Shown here piece after piece: positions 1 to 4,288 of a stretch of 64,000 nt of DNA (positions within the stretch are counted from its first letter, which is position 1; every line of letters starts with the position of its first letter). Location: the NCBI GenBank assembly GCA_937125455.1, contig CAKZLK010000033.1, positions 1-64,000 of the forward strand. Reading direction: 5' to 3'. The notes beneath the pieces are model-generated. The model was given only the letters and a program-made list of their open reading frames with translations. It did not search any database and was not told where the DNA came from. This stretch comes from an uncultured Aequorivita sp. Its GTDB lineage: Bacteria > Bacteroidota > Bacteroidia > Flavobacteriales > Flavobacteriaceae. The translations under genes and the position numbers were made by a program.

Positions 1-168
1 AACAACCACTAAGGTCGTGAGTAAAATGAGAAAACGTTTTTGGGCCTTTTGCCTTCTTTGCATTCTTTTCTTATGAACACCAGCGAGGTCAGCACGTACT
101 GGCGTCTTGGCCAAACGAGTAGACTTCATTCCAAACTTTCCAACTCTAATATAATGTGGGTTTTGCAT
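1..168 (-). CDS. Unknown small basic protein, 3' end outside window
   Basis: An open frame starts at ATG 168 on the minus strand and runs off the left edge, giving 56 visible residues. The protein begins MQNPHYIRVGKFGMKSTRLA, is rich in Lys/Arg up to about residue 45, and then turns hydrophobic (FLILLTTLVVV), which could be the start of a membrane segment. I do not recognise the family. The 5' end looks genuine: a purine-rich AGGAGA lies 5-6 nt before the ATG and a TAATTTTG -7 promoter element sits at 201-194. The DNA just upstream (from about 223) belongs to an unrelated gene fragment, so the gene sits at a junction. Confidence 0.45.
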   Translation of the reverse strand, partial: MQNPHYIRVGKFGMKSTRLAKTPVRADLAGVHKKRMQRRQKAQKRFLILLTTLVVV

Positions 169-193
169 AGCTTTCTCCTGTTCTAGTAAGATG

Positions 194-201
194 CAAAATT
201 A
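194..201 (-). promoter_or_regulatory. Putative -7 element (TAATTTTG) for the minus-strand small gene
   Basis: On the minus strand TAATTTTG fits the Bacteroidota -7 consensus TAnnTTTG and lies about 25 nt before the ATG at 168. No clear TTTG -33 element is visible 19-20 nt further upstream, where the cox3 fragment begins. Confidence 0.35.
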
Positions 202-222: not shown

Positions 223-495
223 CTAGCTGAAATTGGAAAACCTTTAGCAGGAAATGCTTCAGGTTCTTTTGTATGGGTAATAGTTTTAGCACATATAGTG
301 CACATATTAGGTGGTTTGTTTTTTTCTATCATAATAGCTATAAAAGCATTTAGAAACAGAAACGATAAAAATTTTGAATTAAACAATAAAGTTAATCCTA
401 AGAGATTACTTGCTTTTGAGTTATTGAATACTTACTGGCATTTTATGGATTTTGTTTGGATTTACTTGTTTATATTTTTTTACTTTAATTATTAA
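223..495 (+). pseudogene. Cytochrome c oxidase subunit III, C-terminal fragment
   Basis: After an in-frame stop at 220-222 the frame reads an unmistakable C-terminal part of heme-copper oxidase subunit III. It has the helix GNASGSFVWVIVLAHIVHIL followed by GG, then a polar loop, then the last helix with TYWHFMDFVWIYLFIF and a natural-looking stop at 493-495. About 90 residues are present; the family is normally about 200-330 residues, so the N-terminal helices are missing. No sensible start codon precedes it (the first ATG, at 298, is inside a helix). No other oxidase gene is nearby, so this is an orphan fragment and cannot make a working subunit. Confidence 0.75.
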
Positions 496-1346
496 AAAGA
501 ACTAAAACAAAACTATTTGTTGATGCTGAATATTACTTTATTGAAAAGAAAAAGCACGTTTTTGATATATTGAAATACTCCCTCGATGAGGCTGGTATAG
601 ACTTTGAAAAAGAGCCAATTAATCTGATCAATGACTCATTGATCAATGTATTAGGGAAAGTCATATCCAAAGTAAGAGCTAATGGCAAAGGAGATCAAAG
701 GGCAATATTCCTTCTGGATCAATACGGATACTCTAATGTGCCAATTCCCTTACTAAAGTTGCTATTTGATGGAAAGAACATAAATACCGAAGCAATACTT
801 ACTTTCTCTACCGACACAATAGTCAATTATCTATGTGATAGACCGGAATATCTTAAAGGGCTCGAAAAAACTGGGCTCGCTGAGCTCTTCACAAGTGATT
901 TCATCCGTGAAATGCGAGAAATCAAAATATATGAAAATAAAAAATCCAGAGCTTTGATTGAACAAAGTCTTTACGATTTTGTTTGGAAAGAAAGCGGAGC
1001 CAGATTTTTTACCCCATTCTTTATTAAATCCAAATCCAGTAAACGCTCATATTGGCTTGTTCACCTATCAAATCACCCGAAAGCAAGAGATGAAATGGTT
1101 AAAATACATTGGGAGTTTCAAAACAATTTTGCACATTACGGTGGTGCTGGATTAAAAATGCTATTCGGCTTCGATCCAGACTTAGAAAAATTTGAAACAC
1201 AAATGGACTTAGAGTTTGTTTTTGATGATGGCAACACGGGTATCGTAATCTGGATGGTTCAACTCAGCGGAAAGCCCCCATTTAAAACGGGAAAGCAAAC
1301 GCTGTTCAATGTCAATCATATCTACCGGAGCTTTATCGCTGGTTAA
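489..1346 (+). pseudogene. TcmP (three-Cys-motif partner) protein, truncated at both ends
   Basis: The frame is open from 489 with its first possible start at TTG 570. It carries TcmP features: DAEYYFIEKKKHVFDIL (about 522-572), IFLLDQYGYSNVPIPLL, LTFSTDTIVNYL and a C-terminal HWEFQNNFAHYGGAGLKMLF. In full-length TcmP these follow an N-terminal segment of about 100 residues that is absent here. TcmP-like sequence ends near 1215; the frame then continues to 1346 only because it reads dnaA backwards. The partner gene that gives the family its name is absent. TcmP genes are typical of accessory DNA and their function is not settled. It is probably non-functional. Confidence 0.7.
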
Positions 1347-2165
1347 AATTACCTGCTTACCGTTTTGGTGTAAATGGTTGAAAATATGGAAGAAAACATC
1401 CTGTGTTCCAGCCTTGCCAGAAAGCAATTGAATGTCATCAACAATAAGTACATCTATAATTTGATAGAAGTGAATAAAGTCGTTACGGTTATTCTTTTTT
1501 ACAGACTCGATATATTGCTGTGTAAACTTTTCCGCAGAAATATACAGCACGGTTTTTTCTGGATATTTGTCTTTTATGTCAACGCCGATTGCGTGGCCCA
1601 AATGCGTTTTTCCTAAACCAACGCCACCAAAAATAAGCAAGGGATTAAAGGATGTTCCGCCAGGTTTGTTGGCCACAGCTAAGCCCGCTGAACGAGCCAA
1701 ACGATTTGATTCACCTTCAAGGAAGTTCTCGAAATTATAATTTGGATTTAATTGTGATTCAATTTTTACGTTGCGAATACCAGGAATAACAAACGGGTTT
1801 TTAAGTTCCGGGCTTTTGTTTTTTAATGGAACATCAACTTCCTGTGATTGCAGGTTGCTTCTGTTGGAACTTGGTATTTTTTCGGTGAATGGTTGCTTAT
1901 TGCCATAGGTGTTTTCCATTTTAATGATGTAAACCAATTTGGCGGTAGCTCCCAATTCCTTGGTAAGGGCAACCTTTAAAATCTTTACGTAATGTTCCTC
2001 AAGCCATTCGTAAAAAAACTTGCTGGGAACTTGAATACTAAGAGCATTGTCTGTTAACTTTACCGCTTTAATGGGCTCGAACCAAGTTTTGTATGCTTGC
2101 GAAGTAATATTATCTTCGATGAAGGCCAAACAATTGTTCCAAACCGATTCCGCAGTTTTGCTCAT
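1209..2165 (-). CDS. dnaA: Chromosomal replication initiator DnaA, truncated (no domain IV)
   Basis: DnaA binds DnaA boxes and opens oriC. The 318 residues seen are domain I (1-80), a linker (81-135) and the AAA+ core, with Walker A GGVGLGKT (180-187), Walker B VLIVDD (239-244), sensor I ILTSD and the box VII arginines of RLLSRFKWG. The frame reads normally to AIIKNKL and then hits TAA at 1209-1211, exactly where foreign (TcmP) sequence begins on the other strand. Sensor II and all of helix-turn-helix domain IV, roughly 150 residues, are missing, so this copy could bind ATP and oligomerise but not recognise DnaA boxes. As dnaA is essential, either an intact copy lies elsewhere or the junction is an assembly fault. 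It is divergent from the thioesterase gene. Confidence 0.9.
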   Translation of the reverse strand: MSKTAESVWNNCLAFIEDNITSQAYKTWFEPIKAVKLTDNALSIQVPSKFFYEWLEEHYVKILKVALTKELGATAKLVYIIKMENTYGNKQPFTEKIPSSNRSNLQSQEVDVPLKNKSPELKNPFVIPGIRNVKIESQLNPNYNFENFLEGESNRLARSAGLAVANKPGGTSFNPLLIFGGVGLGKTHLGHAIGVDIKDKYPEKTVLYISAEKFTQQYIESVKKNNRNDFIHFYQIIDVLIVDDIQLLSGKAGTQDVFFHIFNHLHQNGKQVILTSDKAPVDMIDIEQRLLSRFKWGLSAELNHPDYDTRVAIIKNKL

Positions 2166-2770: not shown

Positions 2771-3388
2771 TCAGTTTTCCATTCTTTTAATGGTCACTTT
2801 GTAGGTGTTTTCAAACAACTCAAAAACACGTTCCGCATCTTTTTTTCGAACAGAAATTTCAAACTCACAATTCAGCTCCATTTTTTGGTTGAGAAGATAG
2901 ATGTTTTCGTCTTTGATGATCCGCATAACGGTGTTCATTTCGGGATACTCAAATTTTAAAACAAATGCCTCATCAATTGTTCTCTCGACAATTCTGCATG
3001 TTTCCAAAGCCATTTGCGCCGTGGTTTTATAGGCTTGAATCAAGCCGCCTACGCCAAGTTTTGTCCCACCAAAATAACGCACAGCTACCACGAGAATATT
3101 TGTAACGTCAAAAGATTGTAGTTGACCGTATATAGGCATTCCTGCGCTGTTTGATGGCTCACCGTCATCATTGGCGCGGTAGTGTTCATAATTTTTACCA
3201 AGCTGCCAGGCATAGCACCAATGACGTGCGCTGTGATGTTGTTTTTTTAAAACCTCTATGTGTGCTTTTACATCTTCTTCAGAAGAAACGGGAAAAGCAT
3301 ATCCAAAGAACTTACTTCCCTTCTCCTTAAAAAGAACTTCTTCAGAAGGTTTTAAAATAGTTTTATATGTATCTTTTTCAACTTCCAA
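2771..3388 (-). CDS. YigZ/IMPACT family protein
   Basis: 205 residues, normal for the UPF0029/YigZ family. The N-terminal IMPACT domain carries the family signature YFGGTKLGVGGLIQAYKTTA (about residues 105-124), preceded by NDDGEPSNSAGMPI; the C-terminal part (about 140-205) resembles the DUF1949 ferredoxin-like domain. Eukaryotic IMPACT regulates the kinase GCN2; the bacterial role is unclear, with links to ribosome or translation control. The start is TTG at 3388. It lies 27 bp downstream of the DMT transporter gene on the same strand and is probably the last gene of a ribD-transporter-yigZ unit. Confidence 0.88.
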   Translation of the reverse strand: MEVEKDTYKTILKPSEEVLFKEKGSKFFGYAFPVSSEEDVKAHIEVLKKQHHSARHWCYAWQLGKNYEHYRANDDGEPSNSAGMPIYGQLQSFDVTNILVVAVRYFGGTKLGVGGLIQAYKTTAQMALETCRIVERTIDEAFVLKFEYPEMNTVMRIIKDENIYLLNQKMELNCEFEISVRKKDAERVFELFENTYKVTIKRMEN

Positions 3389-3415
3389 ATTTTAAATATC
3401 TATATTTTAAGTAAT

Positions 3416-4288
3416 TTACCATTTTTCAAGGGCGATAAACAAAATTCCAAGAACGGCAAGTCCAATTCCAATCCAGTTTTTTGGCAGTAACTTTTCCTTA
3501 AAAAGCATAATGCCCAATAATGTTGAAATCATCACAATGGCTACGTTATTGACAGTAAATATTCCCGAGCTCTCTAATACATCACTTCGAAGGGCCTGCA
3601 CCAAAAAATAAACCGAAAAATAATTCGGAATTCCTAAAGCGATCCCTCCCAAAATATTTTTTAACTTAATCTGAAGCTTTCCTTGGATTACTTGAAAGGT
3701 CAATAGTACGATACCAAGTACGCCTGCCATTGCAAAAATTGTTGCTGAAAAAATAGGAGTGTCATCTTTGGCAATATATTCGCCTTCAAGATATTTAATG
3801 GTTGTGTCAATAATTCCACTACCTAAAAAGACCAAGACCGGAAATATGAAATTGGCAGGTTTTATTTTTAAACCATCCTGTTTTTTTATAGAAGCTAGAT
3901 AAACAGCGATTAATGCTAGAATTATTCCTGTAACCTTAAAAAAACCAAGACTTTCTTTGTAGTAAACCAAGCCAAAAAGAATAGGAATAACAACACTCAT
4001 CTTTGTTGCCACAGAAACAACAGAGAGGCCACTTCGTTGTGTTGTTATTGCCATTAGATTAAAAACGATAATAAACATTGCGCCTAACCCCAATGCGAAA
4101 GAAAACCAAGCAAATTTTGGTATTTCTGAAATTTCTATGGTACTTTCCTGAAAAATAATTCCGCAAAAACACGCTGTAATATAATTCATCACGATAGCTT
4201 GCATGGTATTAATTTTAAACCTTGAAAAAAGTTTAAAAACCACAAAAATCATTGTGGACGAAAGAATGCTAAGCGCTAGTGCTATCAA
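3416..4288 (-). CDS. EamA/DMT superfamily permease
   Basis: 290 residues with about ten hydrophobic segments in two halves, the EamA layout of drug/metabolite transporters in the inner membrane. The second half ends in a typical tenth helix (WIGIGLAVLGILFIALEKW). The start TTG at 4288 overlaps the ribD stop (TTGA arrangement, 4 bp), so the two are translationally linked. The neighbour suggests, but does not prove, a flavin- or metabolite-related substrate. Confidence 0.85.
   Translation of the reverse strand: MIALALSILSSTMIFVVFKLFSRFKINTMQAIVMNYITACFCGIIFQESTIEISEIPKFAWFSFALGLGAMFIIVFNLMAITTQRSGLSVVSVATKMSVVIPILFGLVYYKESLGFFKVTGIILALIAVYLASIKKQDGLKIKPANFIFPVLVFLGSGIIDTTIKYLEGEYIAKDDTPIFSATIFAMAGVLGIVLLTFQVIQGKLQIKLKNILGGIALGIPNYFSVYFLVQALRSDVLESSGIFTVNNVAIVMISTLLGIMLFKEKLLPKNWIGIGLAVLGILFIALEKW

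Follow-up and report, generated by a model that had tools for sequence, protein, structure and literature searches.

The truncated dnaA gene near the start of this Flavobacteriaceae contig is, on the evidence of sequence comparison, almost certainly the product of a chimera formed during assembly or library construction, and we infer that dnaA is probably whole in the organism. The window, that is, the 64,000-nucleotide stretch that was analysed, comprises bases 1-64000 of contig C33 (106,700 bases), within an assembly that totals 3,734,439 bases in 63 contigs and is rated 99.97% complete and 2.85% contaminated. Two complementary and nearly abutting halves of dnaA lie on different contigs, their flanks are arranged as in most congeners, the genes attached to them are truncated and had no counterpart in the relatives searched, and similar tails occur at two other contig ends; it is the combination of these observations that makes an intact gene probable.

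A dnaA gene divided between two contigs

The start of the window carries the following features:

1..195, strand not applicable: contig-end fragment with an approximate inner border set by eye; a Pfam scan of one frame and a DNA search of relatives gave no match
226..495, plus strand: C-terminal piece of cytochrome oxidase subunit III (COX3), probably foreign, start approximate; PF00510, profile match 253-486
498..1211, plus strand: TcmP (three-Cys-motif partner protein), foreign fragment without its N-terminus; TIGR04474 from profile position 67-70 of 263
1209..1215, strand not applicable: putative chimeric join from dnaA to TcmP-like sequence, where the stop codon arises; blastn of 11 congener loci starting at 1210 or 1215, and the sequences at the join
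1212..2165, minus strand: 5' part of dnaA, genuine, residues 1-318, comprising domain I and the AAA+ core as far as sensor II; DnaA_N, Bac_DnaA, TIGR00362 1-282 of 437 and congener identity
2369..2770, plus strand: thioesterase-like frame (named by eye) upstream of dnaA, in the congener arrangement; congener loci match the window from 1210 or 1215 to about 3300 in 9 of 11

The dnaA frame occupies 1209-2165 on the minus strand (coding part 1212-2165) and specifies 318 residues from ATG to TAA. An earlier note, made from the letters alone, had described it as a dnaA with an intact AAA+ core and no DNA-binding domain, and the profile matches bear this out: DnaA_N was matched at residues 6-68 and Bac_DnaA at residues 139-300 (profile 1-161 of 162), identifying domain I and the AAA+ core, while Bac_DnaA_C had no Pfam match in the 318-residue frame and the TIGR00362 DnaA profile was covered only over positions 1-282 of 437. 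The note had also placed the stop exactly where TcmP sequence begins on the other strand, and the plus-strand frame that matches TIGR04474, open from 498 to 1346, indeed meets dnaA at this point and continues antisense inside it to 1346. Comparison of the sequences at the join revealed that the TAA stop is created by the join itself.

A profile search of the whole assembly returned a single match to the DnaA ATPase domain (PF00308), on C33, and a single above-cut-off match to Bac_DnaA_C (PF08299), at C9:20626-20832 (96.1 bits, E 4e-27); a second PF08299 match scored 11.6 bits, under the cut-off of 31.5. A second intact dnaA, one of three explanations that the note had offered, was therefore rejected, as was the absence of domain IV from the genome. 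The search near other contig ends that the note had proposed thus recovered domain IV, some 2.4 kb inside the end of C9 (23,211 bases) and directly behind a second foreign join. The same part of C9 contains the motif IRELEG, which we take to be the sensor II region, so that both elements reported as absent from the dnaA of the window are accounted for on the second contig.

On C9, the DnaA part belongs to an open reading frame of 598 residues (G000:C9:20554-22350; L005:8554-10350) in which a CheA part is followed, fused in frame, by DnaA. The CheA part matches NF007835 at positions 2-407 of 670 and the DnaA part matches TIGR00362 at positions 281-437 of 437, which means that the two halves together span the entire DnaA profile, from 1 to 437. 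The unusual initiator that the note had considered finds no support in these searches for DnaA-family domains. We give almost no credence to a genuine split, in which a DnaA without DNA-binding domain would exist beside a separate fusion of CheA to DnaA domain IV, with replication initiated in trans or without DnaA. The CheA and DnaA profile matches both cover residues 440-451 of the C9 frame, an overlap of about 12 residues that is suggestive of a short shared word at that join. A frame resembling a low-molecular-weight phosphatase (by eye) follows dnaA on C9, a cheY-like response regulator gene lies in front of the CheA-DnaA frame, and a further piece of about 180 bases was seen by eye at the contig end.

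Fit of the two halves against congeners

In all 11 congeners the dnaA frame is open across the break point, with 428-500 codons between stops. Nine of them encode a DnaA of 475 residues from its own start, and in the remaining two (G007 and G010), for which the script picked a later methionine, the open frames measure 489 and 428 residues and both span the break; these two were left out of the 475-residue comparison. In the nine, residues 1-318 are identical to the C33 part at 303-315 of 318 positions, and residues 322-475 are identical to the C9 part at 144-152 of 154 positions. Three codons are missing between the two parts, and the same three residues occupy this place in 10/10 congeners compared. 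The nearest named relatives, a metagenome-assembled genome named Aequorivita sp. and A. lipolytica, share 98% identity with the DnaA part.

The DNA comparison places the break equally narrowly. In blastn searches, similarity to the congener dnaA loci starts at window position 1210 or 1215 in 11/11 and ends at C9:21018 or 21020, again in 11/11; the two boundaries nearly meet, with a loss of no more than about 9 nt between them. The lost part of the gene is thus present elsewhere in the assembly, abutting the break. From the break outwards, dnaA included, C33 matches the congeners over up to about 2.1 kb, to base ~3300 where the query ends, in 9/11 (the other two loci end before that base), and C9 matches over about 1.5 kb in 10/11, which is as far as most loci reach. 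In the eleventh congener, G001, the C9 match is limited to dnaA, so the next gene must differ there. Of the three explanations in the earlier note, this leaves the assembly join, which is upheld by the discovery of domain IV on C9, the complementary halves and the congener-like flanks.

Not every observation points the same way. That the DNA adjoining dnaA in G001 differs from C9 counts against a chimera, as does the need for one common cause, for example a hole in coverage, to explain why the breaks in C33 and C9 lie no more than 9 nt apart. We also considered that the bin holds two strains or species, one half of dnaA coming from another Aequorivita and the partner halves missing for other reasons. 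The reported contamination of 2.85% and the presence of foreign pieces are in keeping with such a mixture, but each half is present as a single copy, the halves fit within 9 nt, and by DNA the closest congener of each is G011 (at 90% over ~2.1 kb for C33 and 83% over ~1.5 kb for C9), making this a highly improbable origin of the break.

Foreign DNA at the joins and at other contig ends

Bases 1-1209 of the window form a patchwork of the end fragment, the C-terminal COX3 piece and TcmP without its N-terminus. The match of the frame open at 498-1346 to TIGR04474 starts at profile position 67 or 70 and ends at 261 of 263 (E between 4e-32 and 5e-32). PF00510 scored 26.4 bits, above the cut-off, on 298-495 of the window, and 23.0 bits, just below the cut-off, in the genome search. 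The possibility that COX3 and TcmP are the organism's own genes was rejected because two better COX3 matches lie on C43, TcmP occurs in this assembly solely as this fragment, and a DNA search of bases 1-1230 against 19 relatives yielded nothing but one 37-base match (21 first-look candidates scored per genome, hence not an exhaustive absence). A second copy of 1-1260 was not found in the assembly among 40 first-look candidates, a search likewise short of exhaustive. The TcmP family is present in 23/198 genomes of the phylum, this one included. A search of 394 further genomes of the order gave only four weak protein matches to the fragment (E 1.9e-4 to 8.4e-4), no donor was found among plasmids or genomes of the order, and the TcmP relatives fetched are too remote to show how long any shared word at the join would be.

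The DNA attached to the C9 half comprises the first part of cheA with the cheY-like gene ahead of it, and is likewise foreign to the lineage. The CheA dimerisation domain was detected in one of 20 genomes, namely this one, and there only beside the join; it is absent from all 19 relatives and present in 7/14 control genomes. Compared with plasmid records, the CheA piece is 40.8-44.1% identical across 12 rows, among the matches listed; the search returned 220 records, four of them at 60-80% identity outside those 12 rows, and no near relative of the piece was found among the plasmid matches listed; the single region retrieved for it carries no annotation. The plasmid and order searches revealed no donor for any of the attached DNA, which counts against a chimera.

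We examined 84 of the 126 contig ends (all 63 starts and 21 far ends) and counted GC at 76 of them, after dropping eight contigs shorter than 4,000 bases, two of which were masked. The outermost 500 bases had a GC content of at least 0.45 at 15/76 ends, compared with 4/76 at bases 3001-3500. The dnaA-joined ends of C33 and C9 are not among these 15 and show no GC shift of their own, a further point against a chimera. Some of the high-GC ends may be real islands, GC alone being a rough guide, and ribosomal RNA was rejected as their general cause, accounting for only 2/14 ends (Rfam search of all but L116). Coverage by open reading frames at contig ends is a weak guide and stands outside the evidence.

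Two of the 15 high-GC ends, set against 19 relatives, carry foreign tails of about 0.8-1.1 kb with a high GC content relative to the 0.37 of the window. On C58 the tail occupies bases 1-1066 (L166; GC 0.50 in the first 500) and several congeners match only from base 1067; on C60 it occupies bases 1-835 (L168; GC 0.56 in the first 500), and congener matches, one long in G005 and many short, begin at base 836. Before these bases a single 42-base match was found in the 19 relatives, and no motif shared by the two joins was seen by eye when they were set against congeners.

C50 (1-599; L158) and C59 (1-358; L167) start inside ribosomal RNA genes, which are a commonplace cause of breaks in assemblies. 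The first 4,000 bases of C34 (1-4000; L142) have 19-20% GC, compared with 28-40% for the rest of that contig, and hold a tRNA-His and a frame resembling a sodium/proton exchanger (by eye); this has the look of another attached piece and may be eukaryote DNA from the same sample.

These tails also bear on whether the rearrangement could be real, with foreign DNA inserted in or exchanged with dnaA, the two pieces carried in the living cell, and initiation depending on both pieces jointly or on a different initiator. The two break ends in the assembly fall almost on one base, as would be expected of an insertion, and the CheA-DnaA fusion on C9 is in frame. Against this, most bacteria cannot do without DnaA, 11/11 congeners have a frame that is open across the break, the attached DNA consists of truncated, unrelated genes, several of them within 1.2 kb, and similar tails are found at the ends of C58 and C60. 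We therefore regard a real rearrangement as very unlikely.

Proposed origin of the chimera and its relation to known systems

Under the preferred reading of a chimeric join, dnaA in the organism would be an ordinary gene of about 475 codons, and the assembly would have broken once inside it, between codons 318 and 322. Each broken end would then have been joined to unrelated DNA, the C33 end to the TcmP, COX3 and end-fragment pieces and the C9 end to cheA-cheY. Chimeric molecules arising from whole-genome amplification or ligation could be the cause; alternatively, the assembler might have linked dead ends via short shared words in a mixed sample.

The biology of dnaA here is ordinary, and the value of the result is solely to caution users of this assembly. 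An assembly that looks near-complete by standard scores can carry chimeric ends that cut essential genes, creating apparent fusions, such as CheA-DnaA, as well as apparent losses. Bases 1-1215 of the window should be left out of the annotation of this genome.

Compared with DnaA of Aequorivita and its relatives, as described by TIGR00362, the protein is alike in that both halves match and together cover positions 1-437, with neighbouring DNA as in most congeners; it differs in being split over two contigs with three codons lost between them. Chimeric contigs are familiar from genome and metagenome assemblies, and the GUNC tool is reported to detect them by how homogeneous the contigs are in lineage (PMC8201837). 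The present contigs resemble those cases in combining pieces from unrelated sources within one contig, but differ in that the join cuts an essential gene and so takes on the appearance of biology.
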